Source: Pseudomonas poae (lineage in GTDB: Bacteria; Pseudomonadota; Gammaproteobacteria; Pseudomonadales; Pseudomonadaceae). From it: a DNA stretch of 64,000 nucleotides. Each line of letters begins with the position of its first letter. Within the stretch, counting starts at the first letter, position 1. Shown here piece after piece: positions 720-9,114 of the stretch. The notes under the pieces are model-generated. The model made no database searches. It was not told the origin of the DNA and saw nothing but the letters and a program-made list of their open reading frames with translations. The stretch lies in NCBI GenBank assembly GCA_028869255.1, contig CP110972.1, positions 1,803,001 to 1,867,000 on the forward strand, written 5' to 3'. A program made the position numbers and the translations under genes.

Positions 720-1172
720 TTGGATGCCATCACGGAGATCGAAACGACCTCCAACATTCTGCGGCTTACCTCGCGGTTGACCGGGATGCGATTTTCGGCG
801 ATTTCCAAGATGACTGACACGCATTGGGTGGCGTGCGCGGTGCATGACGAGCTGCAATTCGGCCTGGAGGCGGGCGACGAATTGCTGGTTGAGGCCACGT
901 TATGCAATCAGCTGCGCGGCAATCGCACCTCGATCATCATCGAACATGCCAGCCGGGACCCGGTGTTCTGGGAGCATCCGCTGCCCAAGGAGCACGGTTT
1001 CGAGAGTTACATATCGCTGCCCATCGTGTTCTCGGACGGCCGCGTTTTCGGCACCTTGTGCGCACTGGATACATTGCCCAGGAAGCTTGAGAACACGCCA
1101 ATGATCGAAATCCTCACCATCTTCACCCGTCTCATCGGCACGACGCTGGAGTTGCAACGCAACAGCGCTTGA
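720..1172 (+). CDS. GAF-domain protein
   Basis: A small stand-alone GAF sensor domain fills almost the whole 150 residues. Recognisable parts are the opening helix (EIETTSNILRLTSRLTGMRF), the AISKMTDTHWVACAV strand, the LCNQLRG element, and the ESYISLPIVFSDGRVFGTLCALD segment typical of GAF domains placed before kinases or cyclases. No output domain follows, so it may sense a small molecule and act through a partner, or be a remnant. The start is unclear. The frame opens at 681 after a TGA and contains no ATG or GTG before the TTG used here. The coding signal (VIKHLTVEELDA) extends upstream of this TTG, so the true start may lie near 690-696 or be hidden by a sequence error. Confidence 0.7.
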   Translation: MDAITEIETTSNILRLTSRLTGMRFSAISKMTDTHWVACAVHDELQFGLEAGDELLVEATLCNQLRGNRTSIIIEHASRDPVFWEHPLPKEHGFESYISLPIVFSDGRVFGTLCALDTLPRKLENTPMIEILTIFTRLIGTTLELQRNSA

Positions 1173-1321
1173 GTGCAGAGGCTTGGCCGGCACTTTTCAA
1201 TGCCTCTATAGGGGGCGGGAAGGTGCGCTCTTTCCCTTTTGGCTGTAGGAAGTGGCCTATCTTGATGCCCAGCGCTTGAAACACCCCTCGGTGCGCAATA
1301 GCCTCGGATTTTTCCGAAAAA

Positions 1322-1603
1322 ATGAGGCCCACCTTGGGAAAGCGAAAAACGGTTTGGCCGACAGACCGCGAAATACGCCTGCGCTTTATCCTCTTCGCCG
1401 TGATCGATGCCGCGAGTGTTCAGGGCGTTGGCGCCGATGTGTTGCTGCCCGCGCATAAATTGCTGCGTGAGTCGCCTACAGCAGCGCAGTTGCTGGAGAC
1501 GCTGGGTGAGATCCTTTCCGCCGATGAAATGTACGGGTTCAGGTTTACTCCGGGGTCGGAAGCGGAAGAATTGATGCGCAAGCTGGAGGTGCCCAGCCCA
1601 TAA
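1322..1603 (+). CDS. Possible small hypothetical protein
   Basis: A 93-residue frame with acceptable codon use in its second half (LLRESPTAAQLLETLGEILSADEMYG) but an Arg/Lys-rich unconvincing first third. It has no clear ribosome site. I recognise no family. A short hairpin (TCGGA, TTTT loop, TCCGA, 1304-1317) lies just upstream. It could be a real orphan, a gene relic, or chance. The following 270 bases up to the Met-rich gene hold no other frame I can support. Confidence 0.25.
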   Translation: MRPTLGKRKTVWPTDREIRLRFILFAVIDAASVQGVGADVLLPAHKLLRESPTAAQLLETLGEILSADEMYGFRFTPGSEAEELMRKLEVPSP

Positions 1604-1873
1604 GGAGCAGTTGTTAGATCGTTTATTTCCTTCTGGTTGGATGACATTCCTTGATCGAATATCCATGACGTCGTTTAACGCCAGATAGCGGCAACCAGTC
1701 GCGTAGTAGCTTCGTAATCGACGGCATAGCATCCTTTGCAGCTGTTTCAATCGACTAAGCTTCCCTCCGAACATCCGATATTGCTGCTCTGCCGGCGTCT
1801 TGCGCCGTTGCCTGGCGTCTCTAGAATCGGCGCCAGAACTTAGCCATTTCCTGTCGATTACGGAGTTTCGAAC

Positions 1874-2377
1874 ATGATGAATGCAATGCAGATGCCGATG
1901 AACACTTCCATGCCTATGATGCCGATGATGGGCATGCCGATGATGATGGCAACCATGAAATGCGAAATGGCCGGCGACGCCATGATGTGCACCATGAAGC
2001 CGGCAGCCGGCATGGACATGGCTCAGTTCAAGACCAACGCCGAAATGATGGCGATGATGATGAACTGCGGCATGCCGATGATGATGCAGTGCGCCAATAT
2101 GTCGATGATGTGCATGTCCGCCGACGCCATGGCCATGATGTCGGGCATGAACATGCAGATGATGCCGATGATGGGCATGCAGATGCCGATGATGAAGTGC
2201 GTGATGGAGTGCACGATGCAGGCTGATGGCATGCAGTGCAAAATGATGCCGATGCCAGGCATGAGCATGGCGATGATGACCAACTGCTGCATGCTGATGA
2301 ACAAACTGATGAACGACTGCGCCATGCCAATGATGATGAGCTGCAACGGCATGCCGATGATGTGCTGCACCTGCTGA
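1874..2377 (+). CDS. Methionine/cysteine-rich protein of unknown function
   Basis: Of 167 residues, 67 are Met (40%) and 15 are Cys (9%). There is no His, Arg, Tyr, Trp or Ile, and only one Phe and one Val. Met falls in runs such as MPMM, MMGM and MMM. Cys is spaced along the chain and clusters at the C terminus (MMCCTC). A 21-base stretch starting at 1916 recurs exactly at 2159, evidence of internal duplication. The start is supported by a GGAG eight bases upstream, and a terminator follows 17 bases after the stop. There is no signal peptide or lipobox, so it should stay in the cytosol unless exported by an unusual route. Thioether and thiol ligands fit binding of Cu(I) or another soft metal; alternatively it could be an oxidant sink, as proposed for the periplasmic Met-rich protein MrpX of Azospira. 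Function is inferred from composition only. Confidence 0.8.
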   Translation: MMNAMQMPMNTSMPMMPMMGMPMMMATMKCEMAGDAMMCTMKPAAGMDMAQFKTNAEMMAMMMNCGMPMMMQCANMSMMCMSADAMAMMSGMNMQMMPMMGMQMPMMKCVMECTMQADGMQCKMMPMPGMSMAMMTNCCMLMNKLMNDCAMPMMMSCNGMPMMCCTC

Positions 2378-2394
2378 CAGGTCCCGCGCAATAA

Positions 2395-2422
2395 AAAACG
2401 CCCCGATCATTCGGGGCGTTTT
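2395..2422. terminator. Bidirectional rho-independent terminator
   Basis: A perfect stem (AAAACGCCCCGA / TCGGGGCGTTTT) with a TCAT loop. A-tracts on one side and T-tracts on the other let it work in both directions, so it should end both the Met-rich gene and the convergent XRE-cupin gene, whose stop codon is six bases away. Confidence 0.9.
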
Positions 2423-2427
2423 GCATT

Positions 2428-3054
2428 TCAGTCCAGGCGTTCGGGGTAAGTGATCACCAAAAACGCCACCGCTTCGCTGTCCGCCGGGTTGCGATAGCGG
2501 TGCGGCTGGTCGGCGTAGAACAGGATCGAATCGCCGGTGGAGAGCAGGTAGCGCTCATCGTTGACGCTGACCTCCAGCACACCCTGGGCCACCACCAGGT
2601 TTTCCTGGATGCCGGGGCCGTGGCCATCGGAGACTTCCTCGCCCAGCGCCCGCAGGCGGATCTCATAGAATTCGGACTGGCGCGCCGTATCGTAGGGGAA
2701 TAACGCACGGCTGGTAAACGCGCCATCGGCACTCACCAGGCGTTTGCTCTGTTGCGCCGGTAGCACCTCCACCCCTTCAAATGCGCGATCCTCCGGGAAC
2801 GCCGCCACCGAGACTTTCAAACCCTTGGCGATTTTGCACAACACCTTGATCGACGGCACGCTGCGCCCGGACTCGATCTGCGCAAGCATCGCCCGGCTTA
2901 CGCCGCAGGCGCGTGCCAGGCCGTCGAGTGACAGATGACGCTTGCTGCGCAGACGTTGCAGGTTGTGCGCGACGCACAGGCTGATCACATCGTCGTCAGT
3001 ATTCGGTTTGGGCAGGGGATCAGGCGGTTCGGGCAGCACGTGCAGGAAATTCAC
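2428..3054 (-). CDS. XRE-family transcriptional regulator with C-terminal cupin domain
   Basis: A 208-residue cytosolic regulator. The N-terminal helix-turn-helix (LSLDGLARACGVSRAMLAQIESGRSVPSI) is a classic Xre/PuuR type. The C-terminal half is a cupin-2 barrel (GPGIQENLVVAQGVLEVSV, then LSTGDSILFYADQPHRYRNP) that probably binds the effector. I chose the GTG at 3054, three to four bases after a TAAGG, because the longer in-frame ATG at 3141 would read through another convincing small gene in a different frame. That small gene's stop lies only five bases before this GTG, so the two are probably cotranscribed. Targets are not evident. Relatives often control amino-acid or polyamine genes. Confidence 0.88.
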   Translation of the reverse strand: MNFLHVLPEPPDPLPKPNTDDDVISLCVAHNLQRLRSKRHLSLDGLARACGVSRAMLAQIESGRSVPSIKVLCKIAKGLKVSVAAFPEDRAFEGVEVLPAQQSKRLVSADGAFTSRALFPYDTARQSEFYEIRLRALGEEVSDGHGPGIQENLVVAQGVLEVSVNDERYLLSTGDSILFYADQPHRYRNPADSEAVAFLVITYPERLD

Positions 3055-3059
3055 TGGCC

Positions 3060-3218
3060 TTACGCCCGGCGGGTATCGCTGGACGGGGCGGCCTGTGCGG
3101 TAAACACCGCGAGCCCGGCACGCGCCGCGTACATCGCCCACATCAGCTCGGCCGCTGTACGTGCCTGGCGGCGTTTGCGGTGAAGCGTGAAGTCGATGAC
3201 GGTGGCGGTTGCTTGCAT
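3060..3218 (-). CDS. Small conserved-looking protein upstream of XRE-cupin gene
   Basis: A 52-residue frame starting at ATG and ending TAA. It begins MQATATVIDF, continues with a basic stretch (TLHRKRRQARTAAELMWAM), then an Ala-rich part and a short charged tail. The codons are well adapted and the frame abuts the regulator gene, which argues that it is translated. The amphipathic basic helix could bind nucleic acid, membrane or the neighbouring regulator, but I know no family for it. A leader-type role in translational coupling is also possible. Confidence 0.5.
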   Translation of the reverse strand: MQATATVIDFTLHRKRRQARTAAELMWAMYAARAGLAVFTAQAAPSSDTRRA

Positions 3219-3458
3219 GGGGGCAGTCTCATGGGTGGTTCAGTGGGCCCACAGTAATACTTGCCGGTTATTTCTTTAAATACTGAGTTTGCATGTGGTA
3301 ATTCGATTTCGGACTTAGCAACTAAATCGGCTCCTACACTGTTGTGGGAAGGGTCTGGTCCTTTAATTAGGCGTGACCTGGCGGGCGTCCCTGTCTTCCC
3401 ATCACTGTTCGCGTGGCCGGCTGGCCTGCCACGCCCCCGAATTCCAAGGACCCACCCC

Positions 3459-5570
3459 ATGCTGCTGCGTCAACCTCCGCTGTTTTTTGCTGCCCTGACC
3501 TTAAGCTCACTGGTGCAGGCCGAAGCGCTGCAATTGGCCCCGGTCGAAGTCACCAGCAGCGAAGCCAGCGCCGGCGAAGTGGCCCAGGCGCAGCTTGCGA
3601 GCGTGCCCGGCGCCACCAATTACATCGACATGAACAGCGTGCAGCAGGGGCGGGTGAGCACCAATGAAGACGTGTTCAAGTACCAGCCCGGGGTGTACGC
3701 CAAGGCGGCGAATAATGAAGGCGTGAAGTTGTCCATTCGCGGTTCGGGCCTAAACCGCAGCCCTGGCTCCCACGCCTCGGGGCTGTATGAAATGTTCGAC
3801 GGCTTGCCGCTGACCGGCCCTGGTGGCACGCCCTACGAACTCAAGGACCCGTTGTGGCAAAGCCGCGTCGAAGTGCTGCGCGGCGCCAACGGCTTTGACC
3901 AGGGCGCGCTGGCCCTCGGCGGTTCGGTCAACTACGTGACCCGCACCGGCTATGACGCGCCCAAGCTGCAGGTGCGCTACGAAGCCGGCAGTCGTGGTTA
4001 TGCCCAGCGCGAGATCAGCTCGGGCCAGGTGCTGGGGGATGCCGACTACTACATCAGCCTTACCGACTCCGAATCCGACGGCTATCAGCACCAGAGTGCC
4101 GCCACCGGCAAGGGGGTTGCGGCCAACTTTGGTTACCGCTTCAGCCCGGCACTGGAAACCCGTTTCTACTTGCGCTACCGCGAAACCACCAACGACACCC
4201 CGGGCAAACTCACCCGTGCGCAGATCAGCCACGACCCGCGTGCCGCCAACAGCCTCAACGCCGCCCGCGATTCCAAGCGCTTGCAACCCGGCTCCACCTG
4301 GATCGCCAACAAAACCACCTTGCAGCTGGACGACAACTCGCGCCTCGAAGCCGGGCTGGCCTACCACGATTACCCGATGGACCTGCGCGAAGGCACCAAC
4401 CGCCTCAAGGTGGCCTACACCGATATCAGCAGCACCCTGAACTATATCCGCCAGGACACGCTGTTCGGCCACGACAGCAAAACCACCCTCGGCCTGCGCA
4501 CCACCCAGGCGATGCCCAACAATGGCGCCTCGGAATACGTGCGCACGCCGGCCGGCAACACCGCAGGCTACGCCCCCGGCACCAAGACCCGCGACTACAG
4601 CTACCTGGGTTCTGACACCGTGCTGCACATCGGCAACGACCTGGAACTGGCCCAGGATTTGTGGCTGACCACCGGCCTGGCCGCGATCTACACGCGCCGC
4701 GAAACCCAGGTCACCTACCCCGAAGGCCAGGCGCCGCTCAGCCAGCATGATTGGGATTACGCCCCGCGTATCGGCCTGCGTTACGACTTCAACCCGCAAT
4801 TGCAGGTGTACGGCAACCTGAGCCGCTCGGTCGAGCCGCCGCACGCGTGGTCGATGATCTGGGGTTCCAACAAGTACTTCACCAGCGGCGCGGCCAAAGG
4901 CTTGGCGCGTGAAGGCGTGAGCCTGAAGAATCAGACCGCCACCACCCTGGAATTCGGCGGACGGGGAGAAGCATCGTTCGGCCAGTGGGACCTGGCGCTG
5001 TACCGCTCCGAAGTGCGTCACGAATTGCTCAGCGTGGAAACCCAGGGCCAAACTTCCACCAGCAATGCGATCATCGCCGAATCCAACGCCAGCCCCACCG
5101 TGCACCAAGGCGTGGAGCTGGGGCTGCTGAGCCCGTTATGGGACGGCGGCCGCAGCGGCCAGCTCGCCCTGCGCCAAGCCTATACCTTCAGCGACTTCCA
5201 TTACCGCGACGATGACCGATTCGGCGACAACACCTTGCCGGGCATCCCCAAGCACTACTACCAGGCGCAGTTGCGCTACAGCCACCCGACGGGGTTCTAC
5301 ACCAGCCTCAACACCGAGTACTCGTCACGGGTGGCGGTGGACTATGCCAACTCCTACTACGCCGCGTCCTATACGCTGCTCGGCGCCACCTTCGGCTACG
5401 ACGCGCCCAAGCAGGACTGGCAAGCCTGGGTTGACCTGCGCAACCTCACCAACCGGCGCTACGCCAACACCGTCACTCCGGGCTACGACGACAAAGGCTT
5501 GGATGTGGCGCGCTCCACCCCGGCGGACGGTCGCGGCATCTACACCGGCGTGTCCTGGAGCTGGCGCTAA
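3459..5570 (+). CDS. TonB-dependent outer-membrane receptor
   Basis: A 703-residue siderophore/metal-type receptor. An ATG preceded by AAGGA eight bases away begins a signal peptide (about residues 1-22, ending LVQA). A TonB-box-like APVEVTSSE follows directly. The plug domain comes next (NEDVFKYQPGVYAK, IRGSGLNRSPGSHASG, VEVLRGANGFDQGALALGGSVNYVTR), then a 22-strand-type barrel ending in an aromatic strand (GVSWSW). There is no N-terminal secretin-like signalling domain, although an ECF sigma/FecR pair lies just downstream. It may therefore be a target of that pair rather than its sensor. The substrate cannot be told from sequence. Confidence 0.93.
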   Translation: MLLRQPPLFFAALTLSSLVQAEALQLAPVEVTSSEASAGEVAQAQLASVPGATNYIDMNSVQQGRVSTNEDVFKYQPGVYAKAANNEGVKLSIRGSGLNRSPGSHASGLYEMFDGLPLTGPGGTPYELKDPLWQSRVEVLRGANGFDQGALALGGSVNYVTRTGYDAPKLQVRYEAGSRGYAQREISSGQVLGDADYYISLTDSESDGYQHQSAATGKGVAANFGYRFSPALETRFYLRYRETTNDTPGKLTRAQISHDPRAANSLNAARDSKRLQPGSTWIANKTTLQLDDNSRLEAGLAYHDYPMDLREGTNRLKVAYTDISSTLNYIRQDTLFGHDSKTTLGLRTTQAMPNNGASEYVRTPAGNTAGYAPGTKTRDYSYLGSDTVLHIGNDLELAQDLWLTTGLAAIYTRRETQVTYPEGQAPLSQHDWDYAPRIGLRYDFNPQLQVYGNLSRSVEPPHAWSMIWGSNKYFTSGAAKGLAREGVSLKNQTATTLEFGGRGEASFGQWDLALYRSEVRHELLSVETQGQTSTSNAIIAESNASPTVHQGVELGLLSPLWDGGRSGQLALRQAYTFSDFHYRDDDRFGDNTLPGIPKHYYQAQLRYSHPTGFYTSLNTEYSSRVAVDYANSYYAASYTLLGATFGYDAPKQDWQAWVDLRNLTNRRYANTVTPGYDDKGLDVARSTPADGRGIYTGVSWSWR

Positions 5571-5605
5571 GCACACATTCTCTTCCTATGACGAGCGCGC
5601 TTGTT

Positions 5606-5736
5606 GTGGCGAGCGGGCTTGCCCGCGCTGGGCTGCGCAGCAGCCCCAAAACCAGCCGCTGAAGGAAGCCTGACACACCGCATTCAGCCTCACTGGAGCC
5701 GCTTCGCCCCCCAACGCGGGCAAGCCCGCTCGCCAC
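5606..5736. repeat. REP-type inverted repeat pair (GTGGCGAGCGGGC class)
   Basis: Two oppositely oriented copies of the GTGGCGAGCGGGCTTGCCCG unit bracket about 90 bases and an inner GGGCTGCGCAGCAGCCCC hairpin. It lies between the receptor gene and the sigma-factor gene. Structures of this kind (REPINs) are dispersed in P. fluorescens genomes. Confidence 0.85.
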
Positions 5737-5828
5737 AAGGGCAATCGTTGTAGCCCCTTGCCCCCAAATCGTTTTACTGGCATTGTTCGCGCAATTGGTA
5801 ATATTTCCCATTTGAGATACTTTTGCGC

Positions 5829-6371
5829 ATGCATGACATTCCGGCCGCGCTGGGCGACTCCGTCCGGCAGCAGACCCTTACGGCGATGTACAGCGAGCAC
5901 CACGGCTGGTTGCACGGCTGGCTGCGCAAAAAACTGGGCTGCTCCCAGCATGCCGCCGACCTGGCCCACGACGCCTTTATCCGCGTGCTGATGCTGGCCG
6001 AGCCGCAACATATCAAAGAACCGCGGGCCTTCCTCGCTACCACGGCAGGAAGGCTGTTGATCGATGGCGCCCGGCGGCGGCGCATCGAAAAAGCCTACAT
6101 GCACGCGCTGGCAATCCAGTCTGAAGACGCCGGCATGCCTGATCCGGCGGCGATCCATGTGGCCTTGCAAGCCCTGGAGCGCATCGCCGAAATGCTCGCC
6201 GGCCTGCCTGCCAAGGCCCGTGAAGCGTTCTTGTTGAGTCGCCTGGATGGGCTGACCTACAGCGAAATCGCCACCCGCCTGGACGTCTCCTCCAGCACCG
6301 TCAAAAACTACATCTCCAGCGCACTGGTGCATTGCTACCACAGCCTGCACGCGGCAGACCCGCTGGCATGA
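5829..6371 (+). CDS. ECF sigma factor, FecI type
   Basis: A 180-residue group IV sigma factor. Region 2 (MYSEHHGWLHGWLRKKLGC, AADLAHDAFIRVL, then EPRAFLATTAGRLLIDGARRRR) and region 4 (LPAKAREAFLLSRLDGLTYSEIATRLDVSSSTVKNYI, in two runs) are both complete. Upstream, a weak Fur-like sequence (5797-5815, about 10 of 19 consensus positions by eye) may give iron control; this is not firm. The ATG at 5829 is used; a TTG two codons earlier is possible. The stop overlaps the start of the FecR gene (ATGA), so the pair is translationally coupled. It should direct transcription of a TonB receptor, most simply the one upstream. Confidence 0.92.
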   Translation: MHDIPAALGDSVRQQTLTAMYSEHHGWLHGWLRKKLGCSQHAADLAHDAFIRVLMLAEPQHIKEPRAFLATTAGRLLIDGARRRRIEKAYMHALAIQSEDAGMPDPAAIHVALQALERIAEMLAGLPAKAREAFLLSRLDGLTYSEIATRLDVSSSTVKNYISSALVHCYHSLHAADPLA

Positions 6372-7300
6372 ACTCCGAACAAATCATTCAACAAGCGGCG
6401 AATTGGCTGACACGCCTGCACGACGAAGACGTCAGCGACGCCGAGCGCGAGGCTTTTACCACCTGGTGCCAGGCGGACCCGCGCCACGCTGTCGCCATCG
6501 AGCGTATGCGCGCCTTGTGGGGCAGCCTTGATACCGTGCCCGCTAAACCTGCGCGCATGGCTTTGAACCGCGCTTTCGCCCCGCAACGGCCGCGCACCGC
6601 CCACGTGGCGGGATTGCTCGGCGTATTGCTCTGCGGTTGGCTGGGCCTGGAACACTTGCCGGTGTGGATGGCCGACCAGCGTACCGGCGTCGGCGAGCGC
6701 CGTGAGGTCGCCCTCGAAGACGGCAGCCGGCTGCAACTCAACAGCAACTCGGCGGTAGACGTTAAGTTTGACGGCCACCAACGGGTAATCGAACTGCTGC
6801 AAGGCGAACTCTGGGTGGACGTGGCCAAGGATGCGCAACGGCCTTTCGTGGTACGCACCGACCAGGGCACGGCGACCGCCCTGGGCACGCGTTACCTGGT
6901 CAAGCGTGCGTCGGACGGGACCACGGTGGTGACCGTGATCGAGTCCAGTGTGGCGGTCAAAGGCGACACACGCGAAGGCGTCAAGGTCACGGCCGGCCAA
7001 CGCTCGGTCCTCGACCATGGCCGCGCCCAAACGCCCCAGGCCATTGGCGATGCCGACCCGGATGCCTGGACCCGTGGCCTGCTCAAGGTCAACGACCAGC
7101 CTCTCGGCGATGTGCTGCAAACCCTGGCCAGCTACCGCCACGGCCTGGTGCGCTTCGACCCCCAGGCCCTGCAAAACCTGCGGGTGTCCGGTGTGTTCAA
7201 GCTCGACGACACGGCGGCGGCGCTGGCGGCGCTGGCAGATAACCTGCCGATCCAGGTGGAGTACTTCACCGACCTGCTGGTGGTGGTCAAGCCGCGTTAG
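6368..7300 (+). CDS. FecR-family anti-sigma/sigma-regulator protein
   Basis: A 310-residue inner-membrane regulator. Order of parts: an N-terminal cytosolic FecR_N/DUF4880 domain (ANWLTRLHDEDVSDAEREAF, then W-x(3)-DPRHAVAIERM), one membrane span at about residues 79-95 (VAGLLGVLLCGWLGLEHL), a periplasmic FecR domain (REVALEDGSRLQLNSNSAV, ELLQGELWVDVA, ALGTRYLVKR), and a C-terminal secretin-like DUF4974 domain (LKVNDQPLGDVLQTLASY, VSGVFKLDDTAAALAAL). It would hold or activate the coupled sigma factor in response to a receptor with a signalling domain. The neighbouring receptor lacks one. The stop codon overlaps that of the convergent sigma-54 activator gene by four bases. Confidence 0.93.
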   Translation: MNSEQIIQQAANWLTRLHDEDVSDAEREAFTTWCQADPRHAVAIERMRALWGSLDTVPAKPARMALNRAFAPQRPRTAHVAGLLGVLLCGWLGLEHLPVWMADQRTGVGERREVALEDGSRLQLNSNSAVDVKFDGHQRVIELLQGELWVDVAKDAQRPFVVRTDQGTATALGTRYLVKRASDGTTVVTVIESSVAVKGDTREGVKVTAGQRSVLDHGRAQTPQAIGDADPDAWTRGLLKVNDQPLGDVLQTLASYRHGLVRFDPQALQNLRVSGVFKLDDTAAALAALADNLPIQVEYFTDLLVVVKPR

Positions 7301-9114
7301 GCGTCGTGCCGGCGCAGGCGTTTGTACAGGGTGTTGCGGCTCACCCCCAGCTCCCGCGCCAAGTGTGAAATATTCCCGCCGGCTGCTTTCAGCCGCTGGG
7401 TCAAGTCGATGCTGTCATCCAGGTACTCGCTGGCGGGCAGCGGCGGCGCCAGGTTCAAATCCACAAAAAAATCGTCCGGCAGATGCTCCGGGCGGATCGG
7501 TTGCTCTTCAGCCATCGCCAGTGCCACCTGCAACACGCTGCTCACCTGGCGCAAATTGCCGGGCCAGGGGTGCTGCTCGAACAGTGCCAGCACCTCGGCG
7601 CTCAGCCCGGCCCATTGCGTGGGTTCGCGGTGTTGCTGCCACAGTTGCTGGAACAGCGCCTGCTTGTCGGTACGCTCGCGCAATGGCGGCAATTCGAGGG
7701 TCAGGCCGCCGATGCGGTAGTACAGATCCTCACGAAAACGCCCGGCCTGCACCAACTCGCGCAGTGCCCGATTGGTGGCTGAAATAATCCGCAAGTCCAC
7801 CGGGAATAACTCGCTGCTGCCCACCGGCTGTACGCAGCGCTCCTGCAACACCCGCAACAGGCGCGCCTGGGTGGGTAACGGCATATCACCGATTTCATCC
7901 AGAAACAGCGTGCCCTTGTCGGCCTTGCGGATCAGGCCGATGCTGCCTTTCTGGTTGGCGCCGGTGAACGCGCCTTTTTCGTAACCGAACAGTTCCGATT
8001 CCACCAGCTCGGCCGGAATCGCCGCACAGTTCACCGCGATAAACGCCTGTTGGCTGCGGGAACTGGCCTGGTGCAGGGCTTTGACGAACACTTCCTTGCC
8101 CACCCCGGTTTCACCGTGGATCAGCAGCGGGATGTCCTTTTCCAGCAGGCGTTCGGCCTGGCGCACGGCTTTTTCCACGCGTACATCGCCAAAGTGCAGG
8201 GTTTTCAAGTTGATCGCAGCCGGTTTTGCAGGTGTTGGTTCGCTGAACACGCGTGCTTGCACGGGCATCTGCTTCGGCCGTTTCAACAGGCACTGGAACC
8301 GATTGCGTCCCGCCGCCTGCAGGGAGAAGGGCAGCCCCTGCGGCTGATTGAGCAACTCCAGCAGCGAGACTTTGAACAAACTGTCGATCATCACCCGCGA
8401 CAAACTGATGCCCAACAGGTTGTCGGCGCGCCGGTTGGCCGATAGCACCTGGCCGCTGTCATCAAAGATCAGCAGGCCCGCCCATTGGCTGTCGAGGTTG
8501 CTCAGGCCGGTGTTGAAGGTCAGCTGGAAATGCTCGCCGCGAAACAGGTTGAGGATCAGCCGGTTTTCCACGGTCTGGCTCATCATCTTGACCATGCCCA
8601 GGGTGTGGGAGGGCGGCAGGTAGCTGTCGCTGGACACGTCCAGCACCGCGATGATTTCGCGCTGGGCGTCGAAGATCGGCGCCGCCGAGCCGGTCATGAA
8701 GCGGTTGGCCTTGAGAAAGTGTTCGTCATGTTCGATATGCACCGCCTGGGCACACGCCAATGCGGTGCCGATGGCATTGGTGCCGCTGGCGCGCTCCATC
8801 CAGCTGGCGCCGGCGCTGAACCCCCGGGCCAACTTGGGCTCGATAAAGCGCTGGGTGCCCCAACTGGTCAGCACCTGGCCCTGATTGTCAGCCAGCATGA
8901 TCAGGCAGTTGGAGTTACTCAGGATGTTTTCGTAGTAGGGCAGCACTTCCTGATGGGTGGTCTGCACCAGCGAATGCTGGCTCTCGAGCAACTGACTGAT
9001 GCCCTCGGCCGGCAGTTGGTCGAAGCTGGGCGTGCTCTGGTGGTCCAGGCCAAAGGCGCGGCAACGGCGCCAGGATTCCTGGATAAGGGTGTCGTGAGCC
9101 AGGGGTTCGGCCAT
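7297..9114 (-). CDS. Sigma-54-dependent transcriptional activator, AcoR type
   Basis: A 605-residue enhancer-binding protein. An N-terminal GAF sensor region (about 60-200, with WMERASGTNAIGTALA typical of AcoR-type proteins) is followed by a PAS-like segment, a full AAA+ domain with Walker A GETGVGKE, the sigma-54 contact loop GAFTGA, Walker B GTLFLDEIGD and an arginine-finger region (RFREDLYYRI), and a C-terminal Fis-type helix-turn-helix (GNISHLARELGVSRNTLYKRL). It is divergent from the glp ABC operon. The intervening DNA holds a sigma-54 promoter preceded by a cluster of TGTTCA hexamers, so it very probably activates that operon in response to a polyol or related alcohol bound by the GAF domain. 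The effector is inferred. Confidence 0.93.
   Translation of the reverse strand: MAEPLAHDTLIQESWRRCRAFGLDHQSTPSFDQLPAEGISQLLESQHSLVQTTHQEVLPYYENILSNSNCLIMLADNQGQVLTSWGTQRFIEPKLARGFSAGASWMERASGTNAIGTALACAQAVHIEHDEHFLKANRFMTGSAAPIFDAQREIIAVLDVSSDSYLPPSHTLGMVKMMSQTVENRLILNLFRGEHFQLTFNTGLSNLDSQWAGLLIFDDSGQVLSANRRADNLLGISLSRVMIDSLFKVSLLELLNQPQGLPFSLQAAGRNRFQCLLKRPKQMPVQARVFSEPTPAKPAAINLKTLHFGDVRVEKAVRQAERLLEKDIPLLIHGETGVGKEVFVKALHQASSRSQQAFIAVNCAAIPAELVESELFGYEKGAFTGANQKGSIGLIRKADKGTLFLDEIGDMPLPTQARLLRVLQERCVQPVGSSELFPVDLRIISATNRALRELVQAGRFREDLYYRIGGLTLELPPLRERTDKQALFQQLWQQHREPTQWAGLSAEVLALFEQHPWPGNLRQVSSVLQVALAMAEEQPIRPEHLPDDFFVDLNLAPPLPASEYLDDSIDLTQRLKAAGGNISHLARELGVSRNTLYKRLRRHDA

Follow-up and report, generated by a model that had tools for sequence, protein, structure and literature searches.

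The window analysed here, a stretch of 64,000 nucleotides from Pseudomonas poae, holds a group of three genes that are referred to as M, X and S. M (1874–2377, forward strand) encodes a Met- and Cys-rich protein of 167 AA, which is predicted to consist of two duplicated beta-beta-alpha-beta-beta domains (residues ~24–81 and ~107–166). It converges with X (2428–3054, reverse strand, GTG start), which encodes an XRE-cupin transcription regulator of 208 AA. S (3060–3218, reverse strand) is located 5 nt before X and encodes a small conserved protein of 52 AA with a VIDFxxxRKRR motif. A TonB-dependent-receptor-like gene lies beyond S-X (3458–5570, forward strand) and follows the module in close relatives only.

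Gene structure and composition of M

A recount of the translated ORF bore out the composition given in an earlier note on this DNA: M contains 67 Met and 15 Cys, i.e. 82 of its 167 residues bear sulfur, and it lacks His, Ile, Arg, Trp and Tyr. The ribosome-binding site claimed there is present as GGAG at 1862–1865 (forward strand), ends 8 nt 5' of the ATG and is kept in close relatives. The view of M as a genuine Met-rich protein is supported, and it appears to lack a signal peptide, none being visible by eye. The exact internal repeat, previously put at 21 bases, measures 22 nt (1916–1937 and 2159–2180). M had also been credited with its own terminator. A stem-loop with a 10-bp stem and a 4-nt loop is visible 3' of M (2397–2420), with an A-run before it and TTTT after it, but it lies between the stop codons of M and X and appears to be a bidirectional terminator common to the two convergent genes. 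The consensus terminator scan, whose rule requires at least five T, did not pick up this stem-loop. An open frame of 467 codons runs antisense to M (1007–2410, reverse strand), and its product would be His-rich. This frame is regarded as a by-product of the ATG-rich frame since M shows a codon-position signal.

Conservation and distribution of M

The homologue search proposed in the earlier note returned relatives in other phyla and frame-conserved homologues within the genus. Full-length matches without internal stops were found in 40 of 199 same-genus genomes, with 39 matches among the 194 genomes of good quality. The dN/dS values of 39 extracted Pseudomonas copies against the window's own copy range from 0.08 to 0.36. 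At non-Met codons, the third position is the most variable across these copies, with 0.266 differences per site compared to 0.100 and 0.129 at the first and second positions. These patterns indicate that M evolves under purifying selection. The share of Met ranges from 36.9 to 43.2 % in the 39 copies, the number of Cys from 14 to 17, and His is absent or single. The two halves of M align with a score of 153, whereas none of 1000 shuffles scored above 97; judged by this alignment, M arose by internal duplication. Taken together, the sequence comparisons indicate that M is a real gene with a conserved protein family, beyond chance.

One search returned 44 related proteins. With a profile, 190 were obtained, and the best 120 of these were examined. 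Named Pseudomonas species with relatives of M include P. gingeri, P. chlororaphis, P. protegens and P. lini. Beyond this genus, the matches listed come from Rhizobiales, Luteimonas, a Massilia bin and Myxococcota. Two-domain forms among the matches listed occur in Pseudomonas, Luteimonas and an 'MTMQ' subfamily, which is also found in the Massilia bin. One-domain forms, commonly of 60–145 residues, occur in Rhizobiales, Sorangium, Polyangium, Pyxidicoccus, Hyalangium and others. A phylum-wide sample contained matches in 8 of 398 genomes, the window's own genome counted. No match of M exceeded the cut-offs of Pfam-A and NCBIfam, with a few matches far below, and none was found in PHROGs and PADLOC at the limits used; S had no match over the cut-off or limit used in any of these four resources. 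Full-text searches of open-access papers turned up no account of M, of S or of their association with X. Within the open literature searched, the M protein family and the three-gene module of M, X and S appear to be undescribed.

Predicted fold of M

The AlphaFold2 model of M, computed from 58 aligned sequences, has a mean pLDDT of 78 and a pTM of 0.69. Ten-residue blocks inside the two domains mostly have mean pLDDT values of 85–93, and residues 1–20 and 92–104 have values below 50. Each half is predicted as strand-strand-helix-strand-strand, and a model of a one-domain relative has the same order of elements, with a pLDDT of ~80–90 within the domain. The N-terminus, predicted to be disordered, is Met-rich as well. 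Among 60 aligned one-domain sequences, P92 is invariant, and P46, M48, M52, M56, G60, M61, C63, P67, C80, M83, M86, M87, G90, M94, C97 and M100 are conserved in at least 90 %. Met residues of M are often swapped for Leu, Val or Ile in relatives. In the alignments, every other strand residue tends to be Met or Cys, with polar residues in between, an arrangement that would give a sulfur-lined inner face. No solved structure matched M convincingly, by fold or by sequence.

The partner genes X and S

X matches HTH_3 (2.9e-12) and Cupin_2 (8.3e-12) above the respective Pfam cut-offs, and its N-terminal XRE-type HTH and C-terminal cupin place it among the XRE-cupin regulators. Its position was followed in the named loci, which are the best 80 of 138 M relatives. 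X is convergent with and downstream of M in 78 of these 80 loci, from pseudomonads to myxobacteria (53/55 non-Pseudomonas and 25/25 Pseudomonas), and the gap between the two genes is within 400 bp in 76, with a median of 80 bp. In Luteimonas (L140), X is divergent from M, and at the M locus of the Massilia bin (L147) X was not found. An HMM of X matched 86 of 88 further loci; at locus L076, which is not one of the 80 named loci, the contig stops at the expected position of X. Within Pseudomonas, the same X lies downstream of M in convergent orientation in 38 of 39 regions, directly adjoining it in 35, and in the sole exception (L056) M lies at the contig end. The fortieth Pseudomonas locus (L162) also holds M and X. 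The remaining neighbours of M vary widely across these regions. The neighbouring genes had been said to give no hint; this does not hold, as a conserved regulator adjoins M and a conserved small gene precedes that regulator.

The same coupling is seen in gene presence. Some XRE-cupin match occurs in every one of the 199 same-genus genomes. Matches of X with at least 300 bits are found in 41 of them, namely the 40 with M and genome G183, in which M is absent and X is cut by an in-frame stop (L159, 4390–4863). Genome G178 holds a fragment of X and no M (L161, 3831–4016). Loss of M seems to go along with decay of X since these two genomes contain broken copies without M, and intact close copies of X occur only in the M-carrying genomes of this sample. 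M and X are linked both by their arrangement and by their joint occurrence. Transposase-like ORFs are located near the decayed copy in G183.

The next-best relative of X, with 53 % identity, is found in G198, in which M is absent (L160, 4273–4923, forward strand). It adjoins a monooxygenase gene of the NtaA/DmoA family (570 bits, with a cut-off of 279.7), and the locus, which also spans 4945–8786 (reverse strand) of L160, contains two SsuC-like permeases, with SsuC as the best permease model, below its cut-off. This locus with a sister regulator of X is a possible organosulfur locus. Among solved structures, X is closest to 1y9q from Vibrio cholerae (E 4.3e-25), whose cupin pocket holds D-methionine according to Trouillon et al. 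2021 (PMC7901475). The same paper describes the XRE-cupins of P. aeruginosa with resolved regulons as repressors, six of seven of which act on the adjacent gene (PMC7901475).

S usually sits just before X and has a length of 43–67 residues across loci. Its motif was found in 37 of 38 Pseudomonas loci and in 71 of 79 named loci, or 69 when L097 and L145, which look false, are discounted; control windows contained it in 5 of 298 cases. Many non-Pseudomonas S proteins end in a Trp/Pro-rich segment such as MWVPVW. A profile search returned 169 proteins, and among the best 120 examined, the matches listed include Pseudomonas, Rhizobium, Kaistia, Shinella and a Myxococcales bin. The named matches among those listed are annotated as 'hypothetical', except one labelled 'Zn-dependent protease'.

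Putative control elements

A palindrome with the consensus AAATAC-N7-GTATTT is located upstream of S-X (3278–3296, reverse strand; ACATGCAAACTCAGTATTT here, with 2 mismatches) and is a candidate autoregulatory operator. Allowing up to 2 mismatches, it occurs near the start of S-X in 35 of 38 Pseudomonas loci, in none of 38 random regions and in 2 of 38 upstream regions of M. In a wider set of S-X upstream regions, which includes the named Pseudomonas loci, it was found in 13 of 58 at the same limit. Direct control of M by X lacks motif support because the palindrome of S-X does not recur in the M promoter.

A candidate promoter of M (1800–1827, forward strand) consists of TTGCGC (1800–1805), a spacer of 16 nt and TAGAAT (1822–1827); the consensus promoter scan did not pick it up. 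An alignment of 39 M upstream regions from Pseudomonas shows a conserved order of a TTGCTGCT box (1781–1788, forward strand), located upstream of the promoter, followed by CTTG and TAGAATC. Outside Pseudomonas, a TTGGAGGAAA box (up to 1 mismatch) precedes M in 36 of 55 loci and is found in none of 55 random regions. It lies at a nearly fixed distance of 96–118 nt before the assumed start of M. This box is kept across phyla (e.g. L082, L091 and L126), three myxobacterial loci included. An HDV-ribozyme-like covariance match covers the M promoter region (1779–1834, reverse strand) with 24.2 bits, below the cut-off of 44.

Gene neighbourhood

The wider neighbourhood was surveyed with 119 proteins of at least 180 residues from 25 of the 80 named loci, using heuristic gene calls of which at least one (the Cys/Met enzyme of L126) was miscalled. 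By our own reading, neighbour clusters in the 80 named loci resemble MetN- and SsuB-type ABC ATPases, SsuC, SsuA and MetI, and further clusters resemble MetQ, SsuD, CysK and MetY types. With NCBIfam, one MetI and one CysE were over the cut-off, and best matches below it included MetQ, MetN and SsuD. Background counts were derived from 24 mostly alphaproteobacterial genomes (141 Mb), leaving out that of L097, and matches were placed in the corresponding 24 loci (0.24 Mb) by coordinates. The sulfur families were chosen after the neighbours had been seen, and with this post hoc choice 2 MetQ (0.08 expected), 2 SATase_N (0.07 expected), 4 Cys/Met PLP enzymes (0.51 expected) and at least 3 luciferase-type monooxygenases (0.71 expected) were found. 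In Pseudomonas, MetQ lies within 12 kb of M in at least 5 of 40 genomes compared to 0.6 expected, with a distance set afterwards and cases that probably represent few independent events.

A sulfur-specific enzyme family was found neither at the window's own locus nor in the Pfam top 25 of 113 Pseudomonas neighbours, and in six related Rhizobium loci the module sits among housekeeping genes. No MsrA signature, no P-type ATPase signature and no match to a tentative MsrP-like motif was detected in the 80 named loci (0.78 Mb) and the 40 Pseudomonas loci (0.75 Mb). The absence of the MsrA and P-type ATPase signatures says little because few would be expected by chance. Overall, the gene context points to sulfur amino acids rather than to a metal store or an oxidant sink.

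Discussion

That the frame of M is a chance ATG repeat without a product is hardly credible. The open opposite strand and the 22-nt internal repeat would fit such an origin, but 40 full-length stop-free homologues in one genus, dN/dS values of 0.36 at most, relatives across phyla that keep the same partner gene and a confident predicted fold argue against it. It is unlikely that M acts in a specific structural or binding capacity, for instance by pairing with S or by holding a ligand, with its Met richness as a side effect of core construction. Such a role would be in line with the conserved fold and positions of M, with residues that are often Leu, Val or Ile in relatives, and with the conservation of S across phyla. 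However, a Met share of 36.9–43.2 % in 39 copies exceeds the need of a core, and the enrichment extends to the disordered N-terminus.

A somewhat more probable reading, though still less likely than not, is that M is a cytosolic buffer or store of soft metals (Cu(I), Ag(I), Hg), in which a helix packed on a Met/Cys-lined sheet would offer thiolate and thioether sites; the conserved sulfur-rich core keeps it a serious rival. The near-invariant C63, C80 and C97, the many near-invariant Met of the 60 one-domain sequences and the alternation of Met and Cys with polar residues along the strands are compatible with this, and the cytosolic Cys-lined Csp3 proteins provide an analogue (PMC5171941). However, none of the 39 Pseudomonas copies has more than one His, several Cys are replaced in the 'MTMQ' subfamily, and only the Cys of the second strand is invariant in a mixed alignment. 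XRE-cupin proteins are not a known type of metalloregulator, which also counts against metal binding, as does the lack of a P-type ATPase signature in the loci, although few were expected. A sacrificial oxidant sink, whose Met would be converted to sulfoxide under HOCl or peroxide and reduced back by Msr enzymes, is improbable. Its extreme Met content would suit M to this role, for which the periplasmic MrpX and BcrX are a precedent (PMC8315932). Nevertheless, no signal peptide is visible by eye, the regulator is not an ECF sigma factor, M has no M.KD repeat, and MsrA and MsrP-like signatures are missing from the 80 named and 40 Pseudomonas loci, a weak argument given the few expected. Of the sulfur-store, soft-metal and oxidant readings, oxidant scavenging has the least contextual support.

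The reading that we tentatively prefer is that M stores or buffers sulfur amino acids and is governed by X in response to Met. It is favoured because of the coupling of M and X, the D-methionine in 1y9q, the precedent of local repressors and the sulfur genes nearby. It is weakened because the confident fold and the near-invariant positions of M go beyond the slight sequence constraint expected of a pure store, and because the palindrome of S-X is not shared by the M promoter, the sulfur families were chosen post hoc, the window's own locus has no sulfur-specific enzymes and the Rhizobium context is one of housekeeping genes. With more reserve, M may be a dedicated bank of Met and Cys, a folded cytosolic protein without enzymatic function. 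X would then be its Met sensor and S a small accessory factor, and the three genes would have spread as one module through pseudomonads, rhizobia and myxobacteria.

If M stores sulfur amino acids, the three genes would make up a mobile and self-contained unit that serves sulfur amino-acid homeostasis. The cupin pocket of X would sense methionine or a close derivative, and X would repress its own S-X operon at the palindrome. The expression of M would be set by X, directly or indirectly. When sulfur amino acids are plentiful, M would be made and kept as a folded cytosolic protein, and when they are short, it would be consumed, releasing Met and Cys. S probably helps X or M, although this is a guess.

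Several known systems can be compared with the module. The HOCl scavengers MrpX of Azospira suillum and BcrX of Brucella melitensis are, like M, small, very Met-rich and encoded beside a dedicated regulator. They belong with an ECF sigma factor and with genes for methionine sulfoxide reductase (PMC8315932), whereas the partner of M is an XRE-cupin and the adjacent Msr genes typical of them were not found by signature at M loci. Furthermore, MrpX is periplasmic, whereas no signal peptide is visible in M, and BcrX carries MXKDX repeats (PMC8315932), whereas M has no M.KD match. The Csp3 copper storage proteins share with the proposed M a cytosolic location and a sulfur-lined core. They are Cys-lined four-helix bundles (PMC5171941, PMC9484137), in contrast to M, which is modelled as two beta-beta-alpha-beta-beta domains and has far more Met than Cys. 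With the local XRE-cupin repressors of Pseudomonas (PsdR, PauR, ErfA and others), X shares HTH_3, Cupin_2 and a conserved neighbour; their neighbours are mostly enzymes or transporters (PMC7901475). Unlike these repressors, X is partnered by a non-enzymatic, Met-rich and convergent M, plus the small S.

Conclusion

Dedicated bacterial stores are known for carbon, phosphate, nitrogen and iron. To our knowledge, no protein store of methionine has been established in bacteria. In the literature searched, Met storage proteins are plant cases. The Met-rich seed storage proteins of plants, such as delta-zein and 2S albumin, share with M the proposed role as a sulfur amino-acid store. What appears new here is the family and the module, not a demonstrated function. 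A compact module with its own regulator makes the question of a bacterial methionine store testable. Should M turn out to be a metal or oxidant buffer, it would still represent an unnamed family with a core made largely of Met. In addition, the Met-built core of M offers a natural test of how a protein folds when Met takes the place of Leu, Ile and Val.
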